From Phenylobacterium hankyongense (lineage in GTDB: Bacteria > Pseudomonadota > Alphaproteobacteria > Caulobacterales > Caulobacteraceae): DNA of 64,000 bases. Positions 13,950 through 23,580 of the stretch are shown in pieces; within the stretch, counting starts at the first letter, position 1, and every line of letters begins with the position of its first letter. A program made the translations under genes and the position numbers. Under the pieces are notes generated by a model. That model was not told the DNA's origin. It did not search any database and worked only from the letters and a program-made list of their open reading frames with translations. The stretch spans positions 1,472,001 through 1,536,000 of the forward strand of contig NZ_QFYP01000001.1 of NCBI RefSeq assembly GCF_003254505.1. Reading direction: 5' to 3'.

Positions 13950-14085
13950 GTCGCAACCCCTTCCCGCGTGCGCGATTGCAGGCTTAGCACGCCGTTGTGG
14001 CGCTTAGGCGCCCGTAGAATCCCGCAGCGACCGCCCCGTCTGCGTCGCCCGCCCGTTGAATGACTATCGGCAGAAGGGATTTGCG

Positions 14086-14798: not shown

Positions 14799-15713
14799 TC
14801 AGATATATTTGAGGATGTTGTCGGCCGACAGCTTGCCGATCGCCGAATAGAGCGCGTCCAGCTGGGTCTGGTACTGGGTGACCAGCACCGTGGCGGTCGC
14901 CAGGTCCGCCCCGTCCACCGTCGAGGCGAGGTTGTCCAGGGTGGTGATCTTGGCCTGGTTGTTGGTCACCAGCATGTCGAGCGACGAGGCCTGGTTGGAG
15001 ATCATCGCCTGCGTCGAGGCCAGCCCCGAGGTGGCGGTTCCCACCGAGTCGTAGGCGGCCTGCAGGGTGGCGGGGTCGCTCGGGTTGGCGGCGATCAGCG
15101 ACAGCGCCCGCGCCAGTTGCTCGAACCCCGACGCGCTGGCCGGCGCGGAGAGGCTCACGGAGACCCCCTGCGAGGTGGTCAGGGTGCGGGTGGTGTCCGA
15201 CCCGAGGTAGTAGCTGGTGTCGGGACTGGCCGGCGCCCCGGCCGGATTGTAGGCGGGCGTGGTGAAGTCCACCGGCGCGGCGTTGGACGCCTGGCCGCCG
15301 AACACATAGACCCCGCCGACCTCGGTGTTCAGCTCGCTTTGCAGGGTGCTCAGCCAGTTGGCGGCGCTCTGGCCGGTGATGGCGCTGGCGCCCGTGCCGT
15401 TGTTGGCGCCGCTGATGGCGGCGGCCAGCTGGCTGCGGATGGTGGTGGCCAGGTCGGTGATGTTGGTGACCGCCGAATAGGCCGCCTGCACCATGGAGGC
15501 GGCGGCGTTGGCGGAGGCGTTGTCGGCTGTCAGCCGGGCGCTCTGGCCGGTGAGGTCCAGGAGCTTGGCCGCGTCGCCGGACAGGCCGCTGAAGGTGGTG
15601 GACTTGTAGCCCGAGGCCTGCTGCGCCTGCTGGTCCGCCACCTTGGCCTGGACCTTCAGGCTGGCGGCGATCAGCGCGGTGGCGTTGGCGAAGGTGCCGA
15701 TGCGACTGATCAT
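14799..15713 (-). CDS. flgL: Flagellar hook-filament junction protein FlgL
   Basis: The protein has 304 residues with the flagellin-like N-terminal helix (LKVQAKVADQQAQQASGYKS) and a C-terminal helix (VLVTQYQTQLDALYSAIGKL) that pair in the D0 domain; the middle holds low-complexity strands. The size and lack of the flagellin N-terminal signature argue for FlgL (HAP3), which links the hook to the filament. Its ATG shares one base with the flgK stop (TGATG), so it is translated by re-initiation. Last gene of the leftward hook operon. Confidence 0.87.
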   Translation of the reverse strand: MISRIGTFANATALIAASLKVQAKVADQQAQQASGYKSTTFSGLSGDAAKLLDLTGQSARLTADNASANAAASMVQAAYSAVTNITDLATTIRSQLAAAISGANNGTGASAITGQSAANWLSTLQSELNTEVGGVYVFGGQASNAAPVDFTTPAYNPAGAPASPDTSYYLGSDTTRTLTTSQGVSVSLSAPASASGFEQLARALSLIAANPSDPATLQAAYDSVGTATSGLASTQAMISNQASSLDMLVTNNQAKITTLDNLASTVDGADLATATVLVTQYQTQLDALYSAIGKLSADNILKYI

Positions 15714-17440
15714 CAGGCCATCATCGTCATGAGGGCGGTGAACATCGTGCGGACCATGGACACCATCTGGGCATTGGCCTGGTACTGCTGTTCGTAGGTG
15801 GTGAGCAGGGCCAGTTCCTCGTCGGTGTTGACGTTGGTCAGGTTGTCCAGCCGGCTCTGCGCCGCCGTGAAGGTGGCCTGGGACTGGTCGGCTGCGGCCG
15901 AGGCGCCGGACACCAGGCCTGCCGCGCTGGAGACGAAGCTCGACGCATAGCTCTGCAGGCTGGTCGACTGGGCCGGGAAGCCGCCCGCCGTCGGAAAGGT
16001 GGTGGCCGCGGAGATCGCCGCGTTGAGCCGGTCGGCGACCGCCGAATCGCCCGACGTCAGCGCCACGGCGCCGACACTCAGGGTCGCGGTGGAGGGGAGC
16101 GCCGCGGTGGGCAGGCTGGCCGGGTTGGCCTGCAGCCCGGCGCTGACCGCGATGTCGGTGGCGTTCTGGCCCGAGAACACGTCGTTCAGTCCGAAATAGG
16201 CCGACACGCCGACGCCGGCCGGGCCGACCGAGGCGCCGATGTCCGCCAGCGCCACGCCCTGGGTCGGGTCGGTGGCGGCCAGCACCAGCTTGCCGCTCGG
16301 CGAGATCGAGGCGGAGACGCCGCCCAGGCCGTTCAGGGCGGTGACCAGGCTGCCGACCGTCGGGTAGGCGGCGCGGTTGAAGTCCTGGGTGGCCGCCACC
16401 GTCCCGCTGGCGGTGGTCACCGCCACCCGCAAGGTCCCGCTGGCGCCCAGGCTGTCGGCGGCCGTCACGGTGACCGAGCCGGTCAGCGTCGCCGGCGCGG
16501 GGTAGGCGCTGCCGGCGTTGCTCACGGCGTTGGTGGTGGCGATCAGCGTTGTGGCCAGCTGGTCGAGCTTGGCCTGCTCGCCGACCAGGGTGGTGTCGCG
16601 CAGGGTGATCAGCCCGCCGATCGTGCCGGTGGTGATGCTGGAGGTGATGTCCTGGCCGCCCAGCATGATGCCGGAGATCTGGCCGGGGTAGGTCACTCCG
16701 GCCGAGAGCGTGCTGGAGGCGGTGTAGGAGAGGTGGTTCGCCTGGTCGCCGACCAGGGCGGCGCCGCCGGCGGTGTAGACCTGAACCCGGTTGTCGGGCG
16801 TCGTGTAGTAGGAGATCCCCAGGGCGCCCGACAGCGTCTGCAGGGCCGCGTCGCGCTGGTCCTCCAGGTTGGTGACGTCGCCGCCGCTGGCGCCGGTCGA
16901 GACGATCTGGTCGTTCAGCGAGGCGATGGTGTCGGCGGCCGTGTTCACCGTGGCGACGGTCGAGGCGATGTCGGTGCTGGCCTGGCCGCGCAGGGTCTGG
17001 ATGGTCCCGGACAGGCCGCGGATGGCCGTGGCGAGCTGGCCGGCGGCCGACACCACGCCGGCCTGGGCGGCCGACGTCGCCCCGGTCGAGGCCAGGCCGG
17101 TCACCGCGGTCTGGAAGGCGGTGAGCAGGCTGCTGACGTCGTCGCCGGTCGCCACCGTGCCCAGCTGGGCGTCGTAGGATTGCAGCGCCGAGGAGATTGC
17201 CGCGTCGCGCCCGGCGCTGGAGGCCGCCGTGGCCGTGGCCAGCGTCAGGTAGTCGTCCGCCACCCGGGTGGTGGCGGCGGTGGACAGCGACACCGTCGAG
17301 GTGATGGCGCCGAAGTCCGCGGTCTTGCGCGAGTAGCTGGTGTCGCTCGCGTTGGCCACGTTCGCGTTGGCCAGGGCGATCTGATAATCCGTGTTGGCGA
17401 GTCCCGCCGCCGTGGTCGTCAGGATCGAGCTGAGCGACAT
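15713..17440 (-). CDS. flgK: Flagellar hook-associated protein FlgK
   Basis: The protein has 575 residues. The N-terminus shows the rod/hook family pattern TTAAGLANTDYQIALANANV and NASDTSYSRK, a helical D1 region includes TNLEDQRDAALQTLS, and the C-terminus ends with TNVDTDEELALLTTYEQQYQ-like sequence (observed NVNTDEELALLTTYEQQYQ) and AQMVSMVRTMFTALM. FlgK (HAP1) sits at the hook tip and is exported by the flagellar secretion apparatus. The following flgL overlaps by one base. The central insert is Ala/Thr/Ser-rich and of normal family length. Confidence 0.92.
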   Translation of the reverse strand: MSLSSILTTTAAGLANTDYQIALANANVANASDTSYSRKTADFGAITSTVSLSTAATTRVADDYLTLATATAASSAGRDAAISSALQSYDAQLGTVATGDDVSSLLTAFQTAVTGLASTGATSAAQAGVVSAAGQLATAIRGLSGTIQTLRGQASTDIASTVATVNTAADTIASLNDQIVSTGASGGDVTNLEDQRDAALQTLSGALGISYYTTPDNRVQVYTAGGAALVGDQANHLSYTASSTLSAGVTYPGQISGIMLGGQDITSSITTGTIGGLITLRDTTLVGEQAKLDQLATTLIATTNAVSNAGSAYPAPATLTGSVTVTAADSLGASGTLRVAVTTASGTVAATQDFNRAAYPTVGSLVTALNGLGGVSASISPSGKLVLAATDPTQGVALADIGASVGPAGVGVSAYFGLNDVFSGQNATDIAVSAGLQANPASLPTAALPSTATLSVGAVALTSGDSAVADRLNAAISAATTFPTAGGFPAQSTSLQSYASSFVSSAAGLVSGASAAADQSQATFTAAQSRLDNLTNVNTDEELALLTTYEQQYQANAQMVSMVRTMFTALMTMMA

Positions 17441-17449
17441 GACGCGGAC

Positions 17450-17767
17450 CTATCCGCGCCGCCGACCGGCCGCCGCGTACTGGACGCAGGCGTTGCTGCC
17501 GGCCCTGGCCGCCGCGAAGGTGCGGCGGGTCTCGGCGATCTCGCTCTCCAGGGCGCCGAGGCGCGACTGCACCACCGTGCAGACATCCTCCAGGTCGGCC
17601 AGGAACAGCACGCGCTGGGGCGGCGCCAGGGCCGCGAGCTGGTCGGCGACCATGCGGGCGAGTTCGTGGGCCTCTTCCACGCTGGCGACCACCGGCGTGG
17701 TGTAGTTCGACCGGCGGGCCCGTTCGGCGCGCAGGCGCAGGTGCTGGAGCGCATCCATCGCTGTCAC
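17450..17767 (-). CDS. Small protein between flgE and flgK, possible export chaperone
   Basis: The protein has 105 residues and is mostly helical, with three predicted helices (SVEEAHELARMVADQLAALA, VLFLADLEDVCTVVQSRL, LESEIAETRRTFAAAR). Its ATG overlaps the flgE stop by four bases and its end is nine bases from the flgK start, so it belongs to the hook operon. Size, helicity and place suggest a FlgN-type chaperone for FlgK/FlgL, but I could not recognise a FlgN sequence signature. Confidence is for the gene being real; the role is inference. Confidence 0.6.
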   Translation of the reverse strand: MTAMDALQHLRLRAERARRSNYTTPVVASVEEAHELARMVADQLAALAPPQRVLFLADLEDVCTVVQSRLGALESEIAETRRTFAAARAGSNACVQYAAAGRRRG

Positions 17768-19041
17768 CGGACCGCTTGGGTGAGGGTGTCGAACATGCTC
17801 TTGACGGTGGTGACCACCTGCGAGGCCGCGGAATAGGCCTGCTGCGCCACGATCATCCGGTTGAATTCGCCGGCGATGTCGGTGGTCGAGCCTTCCAGGG
17901 CCGAGGCCTGCAGGGTCCCGGCGCTGCTGTCGCCCGGCAGCCGCAGGCTGACGTTCCCGGCCGCCTGGTTCTGGCTGTAGACCGAACCGGTGACCGCGGT
18001 CAGGCCGTTGGGGTTGGCGAAGGTGGCGAGCGGGATCTGGTAGACCGGCAGCTTCACCCCGTTGTCGAACGAGGCGGTCACCAGGCCCTTGGTGTCGATG
18101 GTGACGCCGGTGAGCTGGCCGTAGAGGGCGCCGTCCTGGGTGAAGGTCGGGTTCTCGATCCCCGTGGCGCTGGAGGTCGAGGAGAACTGGGTGATGCCGT
18201 CGGTCTTGCCGGCGCTGCCCAGGTTCAGGGTGATGGCGCTGGCCGCCGCCCCGGTGCTCAGGCCGGTGATCGCCAGGGCGACCGGCGTCGGGTTGGTGGA
18301 GGCGAGCACGCCGCTGGTGTCGAAGGTCACCGACACGGTGTTCGGGCTCAGCGTGCCGCTGGTGACCGCCGGGTTCGAGGTCAGGGTGGGGTCGGCCAGG
18401 GTCAGCGTCCAGGCGTTGGCCGCGGTCTTGTTCCAGCTCTGGCCGATGGTGTGGCTGACCCCCAGGGAATCGATGATCGTCGTGCTGGTGGTGAAGGTGT
18501 CGCCGATCGCGGCGTTGGCCGGCAGGTTGGCGCTCATGTTGATCTGGGTGGTGGCCTTGGCCGTGCCGCCGATGTTGCTGAGGTTGATCGGCGTCAGGTT
18601 GCTGAGGTCACTGCTGTTGGAGGTGATGATCGCCCCGCTGGGGTCGGTGGGGAACCCTTCCAGGTAGTAGCCCGCGTCGTTGACGAGGTTGCCGTTGCTG
18701 TCCTTCGCGAAGCTGCCGTCGCGTGTGTAGACGAAGTCGGAGGCCGAGGCGGTCGCGCTGCCGGCCACCACGAAGAAGCCGGACCCGTCGATCGCCACGT
18801 TGGTGTCGGTGGCGCTGGTGGCGATCTGGCCCTGCTGGCCCATGCTCTGGATCGAGCTGGCGGTGACCCCGCCGCCCGACGCGCCGCCGGTGGAGTCGGT
18901 GAGCAGGGTCTGGAAGTCGGTGACCGAGGTCTTGTAGGCCGTGGTCGAGGCGTTCGCGATGTTCTTGGAGATGGTGGAGAGCGCCAGGCTCTGGGCGGTG
19001 AGCCCGGAGACGGCCGTGGACAGGGCTGAGGAGAGGGTCAT
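17764..19041 (-). CDS. flgE: Flagellar hook protein FlgE
   Basis: The protein has 425 residues. The N-terminal rod/hook motif reads LSTAVSGLTAQSLALSTISK and NIANASTTAYKTSVTDFQ. The middle has hook-domain strands (GFFVVAGSATASASDFVYTR, DGSFAKDSNGNLVND), and the C-terminus carries the conserved ALEGSTTDIAGEFNRMIVAQ and QAYSAASQVVTTVKSMFDTL helices. It polymerises into the hook after export. The gene is 12 bases downstream of flgD. Confidence 0.93.
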   Translation of the reverse strand: MTLSSALSTAVSGLTAQSLALSTISKNIANASTTAYKTSVTDFQTLLTDSTGGASGGGVTASSIQSMGQQGQIATSATDTNVAIDGSGFFVVAGSATASASDFVYTRDGSFAKDSNGNLVNDAGYYLEGFPTDPSGAIITSNSSDLSNLTPINLSNIGGTAKATTQINMSANLPANAAIGDTFTTSTTIIDSLGVSHTIGQSWNKTAANAWTLTLADPTLTSNPAVTSGTLSPNTVSVTFDTSGVLASTNPTPVALAITGLSTGAAASAITLNLGSAGKTDGITQFSSTSSATGIENPTFTQDGALYGQLTGVTIDTKGLVTASFDNGVKLPVYQIPLATFANPNGLTAVTGSVYSQNQAAGNVSLRLPGDSSAGTLQASALEGSTTDIAGEFNRMIVAQQAYSAASQVVTTVKSMFDTLTQAVR

Positions 19042-19053
19042 GCGCGCGGTCCC

Positions 19054-19356
19054 CTAGGCGGCCGGGGTCGCGGCGCTGGCCGAAGCCAGCTGCGAGACCT
19101 GGGTGAGGATCGACGACATCGTGGTCGAGAGCGCGTCGAGCTTGGTGTTGGTGTCGATCTGCTGCGACAGCGAGCCGTACTGCACCATCTCGGCGGTGAA
19201 CTGGTTCGGGTCCGTGGGGTTCAGCGGGTCCTGGTTCTGCAGCTGCGTGGTCAGCAGCGAGAGGAACTGGTTGCTGGTCAGGCTGGCGCTGGCGCTGGAA
19301 CTTGTGGCGGGGGTCGTAGCCGGCGCCGTGGCGCCAGAGGTGGCGGTGACTGTCAT
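19054..19356 (-). CDS. flgD: Short FlgD-type hook-capping protein
   Basis: The protein has only 100 residues. It matches the FlgD N-terminal domain, with NQFLSLLTTQLQNQDPLNPT and QFTAEMVQYGSLSQQIDTNT. The C-terminal tudor/Ig-like part found in typical FlgD proteins of over 200 residues is missing, and flgE starts 12 bases later, so it is not a disrupted longer gene. FlgD caps and guides hook polymerisation. Start ATG at 19356 follows GGAGCCTCCG. First gene of the leftward operon, divergent from the flagellin gene. Confidence 0.8.
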   Translation of the reverse strand: MTVTATSGATAPATTPATSSSASASLTSNQFLSLLTTQLQNQDPLNPTDPNQFTAEMVQYGSLSQQIDTNTKLDALSTTMSSILTQVSQLASASAATPAA

Positions 19357-19588
19357 CGGAGGCTCCGATCCCTGGTGGTCCGCCCGTCGTCGGGCTGGTC
19401 ACAGGGTTCAACGGCAGGCGGCCTCGCGATGGGGCGGAGTTTTTTCCGCCGCCCCCCAAATAAACACCGCCCCATTCCGCCCCGAGCCCCCGTTCAAGGG
19501 TCGATGCCCGGACTGCGCAAAACGGCGGCCGGGCCTCCCGCCGGGCCCGTCCCCGCGGCCCAGCATCTGGAGAAAGCGGAGTTAGAAG
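19357..19588 (+). promoter_or_regulatory. Divergent flgD/fliC intergenic region
   Basis: These 232 bases separate the divergent flgD and fliC starts and must hold both promoters. I found no convincing sigma-54 -24/-12 pair in either direction. An imperfect hairpin (19431-19457) with GGCGGA and TCCGCC arms around a T-rich loop is followed by a short A-rich stretch. The fliC ribosome site is the GGAG at 19569-19572 or GCGGAG at 19577-19582. Confidence 0.4.
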
Positions 19589-20413
19589 ATGACGGTTATC
19601 TCGACCAACACGACGGCCAACACGGCCCTGCTCTACCTGAACAAGAACTCGGCCGCCGAGAGCACCGCCCTGGCCCAGCTGTCGAGCGGTTCGCGCATCA
19701 CCAGCGCCAAGGACGACGCGTCCGGCCTGGCCATCGCCACCGGCATGAAGTCGGACATGGCGGTGCTGCAGCAGGCCGCCACCAACGTGCAGAACGGCAC
19801 CGCCGTGCTCAACACCGCCGACGGCGCCCTGTCGAACATCAGCGACATCCTCACGCGGATGAAGACCCTGACCGCCCAGGCGCAGTCAGGCTCCAGCAGC
19901 GCCAACGACCTCAGCTACATCAACGCCGAGTACACGCAGCTGCAGAGCGAAATCGACGACATCGCCACCAAGACCACCTTCAACGGCACCTCGCTGCTTG
20001 ACGGCGCCAGCTCCTACTCGACCGGCGTCGACTTCATGGTCGGCACCTCCAGCACCGACACCATCAACGTGCAGCTGAGCGGGGCCGACTCGACGGCGCT
20101 GGGCATCAACACCACCAGCATCACCAGCGCCGCCTCGGCGGGCTCGGCGATGAGCGCGCTGGACACGGCGATCAGCACCATCTCCTCGGCGCGCGCCAAC
20201 GTCGGCGCCACCCTGTCGCGGTTCTCCTTCCGCGGCGCGGTGATCAACACCTCGCTGCAGAACCTCACGGCCGCGAAATCGGCGATCACCGACACCGACA
20301 TCGCCGCCACCCAGAGCGCCTACAGCACCGCTCAGACGATGACGACGGCGGCGGTCTCGGCGCTCTACGACGCCAACCAGATGAACCAGTCGCTCCTCAA
20401 GCTGATCCAGTAG
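19589..20413 (+). CDS. fliC: Flagellin
   Basis: The protein has 274 residues, the size of Caulobacter flagellins. The conserved N-terminal D0/D1 helix reads NTTANTALLYLNKNS, LAQLSSGSRITSAKDDASGL and AIATGMKSDMAVLQQAATNV; the C-terminal helix contains ARANVGATLSRFSFRG and ALYDANQMNQSLLKLI. The variable D2/D3 part is almost absent. It forms the filament. It is followed by a 10-base-pair hairpin, so much of its transcription may end before fliD. Neither FlaF nor FlbT, regulators often beside alphaproteobacterial flagellin genes, is present here. Confidence 0.95.
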   Translation: MTVISTNTTANTALLYLNKNSAAESTALAQLSSGSRITSAKDDASGLAIATGMKSDMAVLQQAATNVQNGTAVLNTADGALSNISDILTRMKTLTAQAQSGSSSANDLSYINAEYTQLQSEIDDIATKTTFNGTSLLDGASSYSTGVDFMVGTSSTDTINVQLSGADSTALGINTTSITSAASAGSAMSALDTAISTISSARANVGATLSRFSFRGAVINTSLQNLTAAKSAITDTDIAATQSAYSTAQTMTTAAVSALYDANQMNQSLLKLIQ

Positions 20414-20421
20414 GCCCGCAA

Positions 20422-20445
20422 GGCCGGCGCCCCCCGGCGCCGGCC
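20422..20445 (+). terminator. GC-rich hairpin after the flagellin gene
   Basis: A perfect 10-base-pair inverted repeat (20422-20431 with 20436-20445) encloses a CCCC loop, nine bases past the flagellin stop. There is no T run, so it may act as an attenuator or 3' stabiliser that keeps flagellin message above that of fliD. Confidence 0.6.
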
Positions 20446-20491
20446 GTCCCTCCCCAGACGGGCATCCCGTCGCAACGTCCTGGCGGTCCAG

Positions 20492-22198
20492 ATGACCACG
20501 ACAACGACAATCCCGCCCGCGACCGTCAACACCTCCGGCTCGACCACCTACCTGACCGGCACCGCGTCGGGCCTGGACACGGCTTCGCTGATCTCGGCCG
20601 CGGTGGCGCAGAAGACGGCGCCGGCCGACACCCTGGACGCCAAGGTCACCGCCAACACCACCAAGATCACCGCCTACCAGTCGCTGCAGTCGCTGATCAC
20701 CGGCCTGTCGACCTCGATGTCGCAGCTCGCCTCGACCACCTACAGCAGCGTTTCGACGACCACGAACGCCTTCCAGGCCAAGGCGGTCAGCGTGACGGCC
20801 TCCAACAGCGCCGCCGGTCCCGACATCGCGGTGAGCGCCGACAGCACGGCTGCGGCCTCCACCTATACGGTCACCGTCGACCAGCTCGCCGCCGCGCAGA
20901 AGGTGGCCTCCTCGGCGATGGCCTCGACCACGGCGCTGGGACTGGCCGGCGCCTTCACCCTCAACGACGCCCTGGGCTCGGCCCAGACCGTCAACGTCAC
21001 GGCGGACATGACGCTGAGCGATGTCGCCTCGGCCATCAACGCGGTCTCCGCCCAGTCGGGGGTCAGCGCCTCCCTGATCCAGGTGGGAACCGGCAGCTAC
21101 AACCTCGTGCTCTCCGGCAACGACACCAACCAGGCGATCGCCACCAGCGCGGCGTCGGGCGCCGACGTGTTGGCCAGCCTCGGGGTGACCGACGCCAGCG
21201 GCGGCTTCGTCAACACGTTGCAGGCGGCGCAGCCCGCTCTGGTCACCATCGACGGGACCCAGATCGCCGGGGACAGCAACAACCTCACCGACGCGGTGTC
21301 GGGGCTCAGCTTCTCGCTGCTGAAGACCACGGCCGCCGGCCAGTCGAACACCATGACCGTCTCGCCGGACTACAGCTCCGTGAAGACGGCGATCACCGAT
21401 TTCATCACCGCCTATAATGCGCTGCGGACCTTCGTGACCTCGAACCAGGCGGTGGGCGCGGACGGGACGCCGGCCAGCGGCGCGGTGCTGTTCGCCGATC
21501 CGCTGCTGCGTGACGCCTCGCAGTCGTTGAACGCCATCATCGCCGGAAACAGCGCCGCCGCGACCGGCGCTTTCGGCAACCTCGCCGACCTCGGGATCAC
21601 CCTGGACAGCGCCAACCAGATGTCGCTGTCCAACCAGACGACGCTGGACAATGCGCTGCTCGGAAACCTGTCGCAGGTCTCCAGCCTCTTCCAGACCAGC
21701 TTCACCGCGTCCGACAGCTCCCTGAAGCTGTTGCAGAACACCAGCACCAGCGGCTTCAACTTCACCCTCGACGTGACCACGGACGCCAGTGGCGCGCTCA
21801 CCAGCGCCAGCGTCAACGGCGACTCCAGCCTGTTCACGGTGTCGGGGAACCTGATCGTCGGCGCGCCGGGCGGCGCCTACGCGGGCCTGAGCTTTGCCCT
21901 GGTGGCGACGGGCGACACCTCGATCAACGTGGCCATCGCCCCCGGCTTCGCCAACCAGATCACCGCCTTCGCCAGCCAGTACGGCGACGTGAACACCGGC
22001 CTCGTCCAGCAGCAGATCACCAGCCTCGGGACCCAGGACGCCGCCTGGACCACCAGTTCGCAGAAGATCCGCTCCGACGCCGCCGCCTACCAGACCACGC
22101 TCGTCAACAAGTACGCGGCCATGGAGCAGGAGGTCTCGGCCGCCAAGATGCTGCAAACCCAGATCAACGCCCTGCTCGGGGGCTCCACCGGTGGCTGA
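20492..22198 (+). CDS. fliD: Flagellar filament cap protein FliD
   Basis: The protein has 568 residues. The N-terminal FliD segment includes GTASGLDTASLISAAVAQKT and a helix KITAYQSLQSLITGLSTSMS. The middle has the two hook-associated domain copies, and the C-terminal FliD domain includes LADLGITLDSANQMSL and DAAWTTSSQKIRSDAAAYQT. FliD (HAP2) caps the growing filament and folds exported flagellin. The C-terminus overlaps the next gene by eight bases, the normal fliD-fliS arrangement. Confidence 0.9.
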   Translation: MTTTTTIPPATVNTSGSTTYLTGTASGLDTASLISAAVAQKTAPADTLDAKVTANTTKITAYQSLQSLITGLSTSMSQLASTTYSSVSTTTNAFQAKAVSVTASNSAAGPDIAVSADSTAAASTYTVTVDQLAAAQKVASSAMASTTALGLAGAFTLNDALGSAQTVNVTADMTLSDVASAINAVSAQSGVSASLIQVGTGSYNLVLSGNDTNQAIATSAASGADVLASLGVTDASGGFVNTLQAAQPALVTIDGTQIAGDSNNLTDAVSGLSFSLLKTTAAGQSNTMTVSPDYSSVKTAITDFITAYNALRTFVTSNQAVGADGTPASGAVLFADPLLRDASQSLNAIIAGNSAAATGAFGNLADLGITLDSANQMSLSNQTTLDNALLGNLSQVSSLFQTSFTASDSSLKLLQNTSTSGFNFTLDVTTDASGALTSASVNGDSSLFTVSGNLIVGAPGGAYAGLSFALVATGDTSINVAIAPGFANQITAFASQYGDVNTGLVQQQITSLGTQDAAWTTSSQKIRSDAAAYQTTLVNKYAAMEQEVSAAKMLQTQINALLGGSTGG

Positions 22199-22580
22199 GT
22201 CCCTGTCGCGCCGGGTGGAAGGCCTGGCCGCCTACCGCGCCTCCCAGTTCCTCGACCAGCGGCCGGCGGCGGTGCTGGCCGCGGTGCATGCCGAGCTCTA
22301 CCGCGCCCTGGCGTCGGCAATGTCTGCCTACGAGCGGCGGGCGCTGGACGAAATGTGCCGGCACAACGCCCGCGCGACGCAGATCCTGAGCGGCCTGTCC
22401 GCCGCCTTCGAAGCCGCCGGCGCAGGGGTGGCGATGCTGCACGCCTTCTACGGACGCATCCAAAGCGCGGTGAATGGGCTGCTGGTGGACCAGTCTGCAA
22501 CAGAAACGCTGCAGGAAAGCCTTATTCAGCTCCGGTTGATGTCGACAGCATTTCACGAAGAAATAGTTCGGACCAAATAG
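22191..22580 (+). CDS. fliS: Probable flagellin export chaperone, FliS-like
   Basis: The protein has 129 residues and is all-helical in prediction. It overlaps the fliD 3' end by eight bases, which is where fliS lies in many bacteria, and its length matches the family. An early AAYRASQFLDQRPAAVLAAV stretch corresponds to the FliS opening, but the sequence is divergent and the call depends largely on context. FliS binds the flagellin C-terminus in the cytoplasm to prevent early polymerisation. Confidence 0.6.
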   Translation: MAESLSRRVEGLAAYRASQFLDQRPAAVLAAVHAELYRALASAMSAYERRALDEMCRHNARATQILSGLSAAFEAAGAGVAMLHAFYGRIQSAVNGLLVDQSATETLQESLIQLRLMSTAFHEEIVRTK

Positions 22581-22679
22581 CGCAGATTCAGCCATGAGCG
22601 ATCTTCAATTGTCGAAGTATCGTGGCGGTTACGTATCGATCCGTTAACCATACTAATCGCATTTGCATCGTGCGTTACA

Positions 22680-22695
22680 TGGCACGCACATTGCT
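22680..22695 (+). promoter_or_regulatory. Consensus sigma-54 promoter
   Basis: The sequence TGGCACGCACATTGCT matches the -24/-12 consensus TGGCACG-N4-TTGCW at every defined base. It sits 36 bases before the ECF sigma gene start, leaving a short leader of about 25 bases. The surrounding 22581-22730 stretch is clearly lower in GC than the genes around it. A GTTAACCAT element (22643-22651), like a half-site for CtrA, lies 28 bases upstream of the -24 element; an enhancer-binding protein would be needed to activate. Confidence 0.85.
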
Positions 22696-22730
22696 CCGAC
22701 TTTGTCCAAGACCACTTGGGACAAATCGCC

Positions 22731-23399
22731 ATGTTGCCAATTCGCGAAGAATTCATCCTTGGGCCACGCGATCTGGATGAGCTCCGGGCCGCCAGCGACG
22801 AAGTGCTGTTCACCGCCAGCCGCGACGGCGACGAGCTGGCGTTCCGCACGCTGGTCGAGCGGCATGCGACGCTGGTCCAGCGCCTGGCGTTGAACATCGT
22901 GCGGGATGAGCAGGAGGCCGAGGACGTGGCCCAGGAGGTCTTCGTCTCGGCGTGGCGCAAGCGGCTCGACTGGAAGCCGGAGGCCAAGTTCACCACCTGG
23001 CTCTACCGGATCGCGGTGAACAAGGCGATCGACCGCTATAGGATGCGGCGCGCCGTCCCGGAAAGCCAGGAGGTGATCACCCGGATCGCCGACGCCGCGG
23101 TGTGCGCCGTCGAGGCGCCGCAGCAGCACCAGGCCCTGGAGCGCACCGAGGTGGCCAAGAGCCTGCATGCGGCGCTGGACACCCTGCCGGCCAGCCAGGC
23201 GACCGCCCTGCGTCTGTTCTATTTCGAAGATCTCGACGTGGCGAAGATCGCGACGGCCATGGTAACCTCCGAGCAATCCGTCCGTTCGCTCCTCAAGCGC
23301 GGGCGGCAGACGCTCCGGACCAGGCTGCAACGACAGAAGAACCTCTGTGCCGATGGATCTTCCGCAATTCCGGCGACGGCTCGCCGCGCTGGGCGCTGA
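22731..23399 (+). CDS. ECF-type RNA polymerase sigma factor
   Basis: The 222-residue protein has region 2 (AFRTLVERHATLVQRLALNI, DEQEAEDVAQEVFVSAWRKR, FTTWLYRIAVNKAIDRYR) and region 4 (LDTLPASQATALRLFYFEDL, SVRSLLKRGRQTLRTRL). It would direct RNA polymerase to a stress or structural regulon. The ATG at 22731 is preferred over a TTG at 22716. Its last 47 bases overlap the next gene, whose product is the likely anti-sigma or modulator. The upstream promoter is sigma-54 type. Confidence 0.92.
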   Translation: MLPIREEFILGPRDLDELRAASDEVLFTASRDGDELAFRTLVERHATLVQRLALNIVRDEQEAEDVAQEVFVSAWRKRLDWKPEAKFTTWLYRIAVNKAIDRYRMRRAVPESQEVITRIADAAVCAVEAPQQHQALERTEVAKSLHAALDTLPASQATALRLFYFEDLDVAKIATAMVTSEQSVRSLLKRGRQTLRTRLQRQKNLCADGSSAIPATARRAGR

Positions 23400-23580
23400 C
23401 CTGGCGGCGTGGCCCGCCGACGAGGCGGACGCGGCGATGGCGCTGATGTCGGCCTCGACGGCCGCGCAGGACCTGTTCGCGACGCGGGTCGGCGAGGACC
23501 TGAGGTCCGCCGGCGCCCCCGAACAGGATACGACCCCGCTGGTGGAGAAGATCCTGGCGGCGACCCGCGCCAGGTCCTGA
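23353..23580 (+). CDS. Small partner protein of the ECF sigma factor
   Basis: The protein has 75 residues, starting at the ATG at 23353 (a GTG at 23347 is possible). The opening LPQFRRRLAALGADLAAWPA resembles small proteins often encoded directly after ECF sigma genes in alphaproteobacteria; the pattern of a Gly-Ala-Asp then Ala-x-Trp-Pro is recalled from that group. No transmembrane segment is visible, so if it is an anti-sigma factor it would be soluble. The 47-base overlap supports tight coupling. Role inferred. Confidence 0.65.
   Translation: MDLPQFRRRLAALGADLAAWPADEADAAMALMSASTAAQDLFATRVGEDLRSAGAPEQDTTPLVEKILAATRARS

Follow-up and report, generated by a model that had tools for sequence, protein, structure and literature searches.

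A candidate sigma-54 to ECF sigma factor cascade at an accessory hook-filament module of Phenylobacterium hankyongense

The DNA analysed here is a stretch of 64,000 nucleotides from Phenylobacterium hankyongense (contig NZ_QFYP01000001.1, positions 1,472,001 to 1,536,000), referred to below as the window. In it, an accessory group of genes for the flagellar hook and filament is accompanied by a gene for an extracytoplasmic function (ECF) sigma factor and a small partner gene (Table 1). This module is most probably governed by its own two-sigma cascade. The work is a comparative sequence analysis throughout, in which genome-wide regulon scans used patterns only, and the comparison establishes the sigma-54 site before the ECF gene, the conserved gene order, a pair of ECF-type promoters and the homology of the partner to Asf6 of Azospirillum brasilense. 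We infer that sigma-54 RNA polymerase would transcribe the ECF gene from a -24/-12 promoter at 22680, a step that FlbD would most likely activate once the early flagellar structure has been built. The ECF factor would read two divergent promoters of the form CGCCCCA-N15/16-CGTT and so turn on flgD-flgE-hp-flgK-flgL and fliC-fliD-fliS, with a 75-amino-acid partner of the Asf6 type restraining it. More tentatively, a hairpin may block translation of the ECF gene from read-through mRNA and not from the sigma-54 mRNA, which would keep entry into the cascade under sigma-54 control.

The ECF gene is almost certainly under sigma-54 control, judging by the conservation of its upstream region. The sequence TGGCACGCACATTGC at 22680-22694 matches TGGCACG-N4-TTGC at 11 of 11 defined positions, with the GG at -24, the GC at -12 and the conserved spacing that mark sigma-54 promoters. 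A sequence-only reading of this region had reported a match at all defined positions directly before the ECF gene, and had given its start correctly as 22680; the end lies at 22694 and not, as stated there, at 22695, the site being 15 bp long. The pattern TGGCACGN4TTGC occurs three times in the 3.84 Mb genome and the reversed control pattern once; this is near the chance level, a single exact match therefore proves little alone, and it is conservation that is decisive. Within the 153-bp gap between fliS and the ECF gene an equally good site arises in about 0.03% of dinucleotide shuffles. The same reading had proposed, as a check, that orthologues should keep the -24/-12 bases, and the site passes it: between fliS and the ECF gene, 30/30 Caulobacteraceae orthologues, drawn from five genera, have a site that matches at 9-11 of the 11 positions, and it is the best-conserved block of this intergenic region. 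When the sites of the 30 genomes are stacked the GGC and TGC columns reach 2.0 bits and most flanking columns stay below 0.8, in a stack whose anchoring on the best match tilts its columns in favour of the consensus. That bias does not affect the shuffle test, in which the score of the sigma-54 site was equalled by 0-0.4% of shuffles for 10 of the 12 genomes tested; for the two weakest sites the figures were 2.7% and 7.6%.

Two other accounts of how the ECF gene is transcribed bear on these results. It is very improbable that the -24/-12 match arose by chance and that the gene has an ordinary ECF-type or sigma-70 promoter. The near-chance number of exact matches in the genome would suit such an account, but the 30/30 conservation argues against it, no sigma-70-like promoter was found before the ECF gene, and the genome has no ECF-type match outside the gap between flgD and fliC. 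It is also unlikely that most of the ECF factor stems from read-through transcription starting at its own target, the fliC promoter, in a form of positive autoregulation to which the sigma-54 site would be a minor or conditional entry. The rpoE6 gene of A. brasilense works in this way: it lacks a separate promoter and is read, together with fliC2-fliD-fliS, from the promoter that its product serves (PMC12826043), and no terminator-like site was found between fliS and the ECF gene in the window. Read-through as the main source is harder to reconcile with a sigma-54 site that is kept in every one of the 30 genomes while its flanks drift, and with the conserved hairpin described below, which would hide the Shine-Dalgarno sequence in read-through RNA.

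A sequence resembling a CtrA half-site, TTAACCAT (22644-22651), lies 36 bp upstream of the -24 element; 0.02 occurrences are expected in the window. It was ruled out as a core element, being present in only 3 of the 30 genomes and common to two close Phenylobacterium relatives only.

The other components needed for a sigma-54 step are encoded in the genome, which has one rpoN and four genes for sigma-54 activators with strong domain scores. FlbD is represented by an equivalog match of 806 bits, encoded directly before flhA. In Caulobacter, FlbD drives hook and flagellin genes together with sigma-54 (PMC3930126), and by analogy FlbD is reasonably likely to be the activator of the ECF promoter. 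Sites of the sigma-54 type, but weaker, precede a flagellin gene in the primary cluster and also occur at the rod-gene locus. Another perfect sigma-54 site of the genome (L001 1501-1515; G000:C1:968766) precedes a gene for an uncharacterised protein of 172 amino acids (MNNANTVLPWRAGVIQDFARSELF...).

The ECF protein contains regions 2 and 4 only and matches the ECF profile TIGR02937 at 99.8 bits, against a cut-off of 42.9; the ATG at 22731 is the best start of its open reading frame. Its best plasmid-borne relatives are in the rpoE6 loci of Azospirillum and of strain UR115, where they adjoin fliD. In a phylogenetic tree all sampled Caulobacteraceae module ECFs grouped together (100/100), and the non-module ECFs separated at 89/90. 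The partner is probably an anti-sigma factor that restrains the ECF factor. It has no Pfam or NCBIfam match, and a profile built from the Caulobacteraceae partners matches A. brasilense Asf6 in hmmsearch at E 2e-10, with shuffled decoys above 0.2. The AlphaFold model of the partner is all-helical, with a predicted local distance difference test score (pLDDT) of 69 from three sequences, which is too weak for a fold search. The soluble form of the partner prompted the idea of FlgM-like export, for which no supporting evidence was found.

The ECF factor very likely controls the module, as its candidate promoters indicate. The gap between flgD and fliC contains two divergent copies of CGCCCCAT-N15-CGTTSAA, with no further match of this pattern in the genome. 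Of the family members, 30/30 retain the fliC copy and 29/30 the flgD copy, with the family-wide layout CGCCCCA-N15/16-CGTT. The same layout is present before fliC, and in most cases also before flgD, in the Azospirillum, UR115 and g41 loci; aligned, the fliC promoters share the RpoE6-type arrangement CGCC-N-CGTK. The motif between flgD and fliC (TTSAACGG...ATGGGGC) had at one stage been read as a pair of facing promoters. The mapped A. brasilense promoter reversed that reading, and the two copies are taken as ordinary divergent promoters. A third candidate target, near 14060, was dismissed as chance: read in the correct orientation, it faces away from every gene. The regulon is probably the neighbouring module itself and not a set of distant genes.

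The module is an accessory hook-filament set, since a separate primary flagellar set, with three flagellins and hook and rod genes, is present elsewhere in the genome. As far as the contigs reach, 30/30 genomes show flgL-flgK-(hp)-flgE-flgD divergent from fliC-fliD-fliS-ECF-partner, with hp and the partner below the search threshold in some of them. These 30 genomes, in five genera, are those among 390 Caulobacteraceae genomes searched that have the ECF orthologue inside the module; a 31st match, in G066, is a different ECF and not an orthologue. Within Phenylobacterium the ECF and the module FliD co-occur in exactly the same 4 of 101 genomes, all four with the same gene order and with a -24/-12 site before the ECF gene. 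This patchy spread (4/101 Phenylobacterium, 30/390 Caulobacteraceae) suggests transfer or repeated loss of the module, which occupies 14799-23580. Several statements of the sequence-only reading can be judged against these results. The 47-base overlap of the partner gene with the ECF gene is real (the ECF gene ends at 23399 and the partner gene begins at 23353), and the neighbours that it called fliC-fliD-fliS-like are identified as such by Pfam. Its flagellar module was correct for these three genes and did not mention the divergent flgD-flgE-hp-flgK-flgL genes (14799-19356). The link to flagella, which it drew from position, gains from the co-occurrence of ECF and FliD, from the synteny and from the ECF-type promoters before fliC and flgD. 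The two-sigma cascade that it proposed is supported by comparison, with what it called an ECF regulon narrowed, in all likelihood, to the neighbouring flagellar module.

Table 1. Features of the accessory hook-filament module and its candidate regulatory elements, with positions in the window.
Feature	Position	Strand	Basis
flgL	14799..15713	-	NF006489, 253 bits against cut-off 217; adjoins flgK
flgK	15713..17440	-	TIGR02492, 227 bits against cut-off 171
hp, Hp2-like small protein	17450..17767	-	Position kept in most orthologous modules; no Pfam match
flgE, hook	17764..19041	-	NCBIfam NF004242, 486 bits against cut-off 365
flgD, hook cap	19054..19356	-	Pfam FlgD 6e-20
Candidate ECF-dependent promoter of flgD-flgE-hp-flgK-flgL (-35 CGCCCCAT, -10 CGTTGAA)	19407..19436	-	Only minus-strand genome match
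Candidate ECF-dependent promoter of fliC-fliD-fliS (-35 CGCCCCAT, -10 CGTTCAA)	19468..19497	+	Only plus-strand genome match
fliC, short flagellin, 274 aa	19589..20413	+	Pfam Flagellin_N 9e-33
fliD, filament cap	20492..22198	+	Pfam FliD_C 5.5e-34, FliD_N 8.8e-15
fliS, flagellin export chaperone	22191..22580	+	Pfam FliS 2.2e-06
Predicted sigma-54 (-24/-12) promoter of ECF gene (TGGCACG-CACA-TTGC)	22680..22694	+	11/11 consensus; 30/30 Caulobacteraceae orthologues
Conserved inverted repeat, predicted stem-loop	22696..22730	+	RNA fold z -2.8; spans predicted sigma-54 start, covers Shine-Dalgarno sequence
ECF sigma factor, RpoE6-like, 222 aa	22731..23399	+	Pfam Sigma70_r2 3e-19, r4_2 1.8e-11; TIGR02937
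Partner, small and soluble, 75 aa; probably an Asf6-family anti-sigma factor	23353..23580	+	Profile match to Asf6

Several observations weigh against the cascade as proposed. The sites are weaker (9/11) in Phenylobacterium G001 and in an orthologue from genus g295, with shuffle P values of 0.03 and 0.08. Seven orthologous loci examined outside the Caulobacteraceae score 7-8 of 11, like their own shuffles; because these loci have no sigma-54 site, sigma-54 control is, on this comparison, not essential to the module. The identity between the ECF factor and RpoE6 is only about 40%, and seven other module ECFs require 2 changes in the tree, so that a single clade is not certain. Three NtrC-type activators are encoded besides FlbD, and no FlbD binding site was assigned, a reliable consensus being lacking. 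Together with this, the choice among four strong activator genes gives some room to an activator other than FlbD, for example one of the NtrC or NtrX type, which would tie the module to nitrogen or to another signal. We consider this somewhat unlikely given the Caulobacter precedent cited above and the presence of FlbD in this genome.

In nearly every lineage an inverted repeat, which differs in sequence, follows the -12 element and precedes the start codon. In the window the Shine-Dalgarno sequence TGGGAC is at 22717-22722 and the sigma-54 start is predicted at about 22706, from sigma-54 geometry only (position 26 after the first T of the site). A 32-nt segment covering positions 18-50 after that T has a mean z of -2.40 over 18 lineages, with z below -1 in 15 of the 18 and values of about 0 in four control segments; the lineages are related, and the combined scores therefore overstate the significance. 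Sliding this segment gives a single sharp peak at 16-48 (mean z -2.14), which is gone at 24-56 (-0.43). The native halves of the hairpin pair with -10.5 kcal/mol and chimeras between lineages with -5.0; a loss of half the stability at 35% median identity indicates compensatory change. Pairing of the stem depends on bases that precede the predicted sigma-54 start, and the Shine-Dalgarno sequence usually falls in its 3' arm. The predicted mean unpaired probability of the Shine-Dalgarno sequence is 0.24 in the read-through RNA and 0.47 in the sigma-54 RNA, a rise that follows partly by construction from removal of the 5' arm and is absent in a few lineages. The short sigma-54 RNA of the window keeps a 5-bp stem, and the accessibility effect in the window itself may for this reason be modest.

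It is conceivable, at slightly less than even chances, that this hairpin acts as a gate which silences the read-through mRNA and lets the sigma-54 mRNA be translated. If so, sigma-54 transcription would begin within the 5' arm of the hairpin, and the ECF loop, instead of amplifying itself, would form a level in the flagellar hierarchy to which sigma-54 strictly controls entry. A doubtful but possible alternative is that the hairpin stabilises the 5' end of the mRNA or that an RNA-binding regulator, for example FlbT, acts on it, with no switch in translation. The short stem that persists in the sigma-54 mRNA of the window would fit this alternative; the dependence of the fold signal on bases upstream of the predicted start does not, and a median identity of 35% is unlike that of an element recognised by a protein. 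A translation gate has a precedent in the phage T4 genes e, soc and 49, in whose longer transcripts the ribosome-binding site is buried in a hairpin, the 5' arm of which contains an internal promoter (PMC3014915). The predicted geometry of promoter and hairpin and the compensatory change fit that of T4 gene e, although here the gene is a bacterial regulator, the promoter is of the sigma-54 type and the gate is a prediction only. At this locus a translation gate like that of T4 may act on the mRNA of a bacterial regulator.

The closest known system is RpoE6/Asf6 of A. brasilense. RpoE6, reported in late 2025, is the first flagellum-specific sigma factor known in Alphaproteobacteria; the fliC2 promoter that it serves has the elements CGCCAG (-35) and CGTGAG (-10), 16 nt apart, and was mapped by 5' rapid amplification of cDNA ends (RACE) and shown by deletion, FliC2 requires RpoE6, and Asf6 binds and opposes it (PMC12826043). 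In both systems the ECF gene lies within a flgDEKL-fliCDS cluster with a small partner gene, the partners are homologous, and the fliC promoter has the layout CGCC, 16-17 nt, CGTT/CGTG. The promoterless state of rpoE6, a trait of A. brasilense that is perhaps not a defining one, is not shared by the Caulobacteraceae, where a predicted sigma-54 promoter precedes the ECF gene in 30/30 genomes, followed by the hairpin; for this reason the Caulobacteraceae system is classed as a variant, similar to RpoE6/Asf6 in its way of working. Here flgD and fliC are divergent, unlike in A. brasilense. RpoE6 also affects fructose and glycerol genes (PMC12826043), whereas the strict promoter pattern occurs nowhere in the present genome outside the gap between flgD and fliC. 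A module of the RpoE6 kind is now seen across a second family, with a predicted sigma-54 input that Azospirillum lacks.

Other flagellar and secretion systems share parts of this arrangement. FliA (sigma-28) and FlgM are a dedicated sigma factor and its small soluble antagonist, and in several polar flagellates fliA follows sigma-54. The module resembles this pair in having a dedicated sigma factor and a small soluble partner for late hook and filament genes. It differs in its promoter and in its proteins, as the best families of the sigma factor are ECF and not sigma-28, and the partner is an Asf6 homologue with no family match that would relate it to FlgM. The locus provides a case, open to experiment, in which an ECF factor would take the place of FliA below sigma-54. 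In Pseudomonas syringae a sigma-54 promoter served by HrpR and HrpS drives the ECF factor HrpL, which activates type III secretion genes (PMC8228185). The step from sigma-54 to an ECF factor in front of a gene set of the type III secretion type is alike in the two; the product is an injectisome there and a flagellum here, and HrpR and HrpS are dedicated activators of the HrpL system. Class III/IV control in Caulobacter uses the same type of promoter and probably the same activator, though the flagellin genes of Caulobacter crescentus are direct targets of sigma-54 and the ECF factor here would be an extra tier. We found no report in the literature of a sigma-54 to ECF step for a flagellar ECF factor.

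Two further observations concern the ECF-type pattern and the partner. In Phenylobacterium G001 an ECF-type match, CGCCCCATCC-N-CCGTTCAA (L064 1500-1560; G001:C22:148074-148103), lies about 30 nt before a small uncharacterised gene, which is a possible extra member of the regulon in that genome. Within the genus, weaker relatives of the partner are N-terminal portions of membrane proteins whose genes immediately follow another ECF gene, whereas the partner beside the flagellar ECF factor is a soluble form. Several Phenylobacterium genomes (L023-L027) have this arrangement, in which the gene after the ECF gene codes for a membrane protein with the N-terminal part of the partner; at most of the loci inspected a gene for a second small membrane-anchored protein lies downstream, and this ECF/anti-sigma system is apparently separate from the flagellar one.
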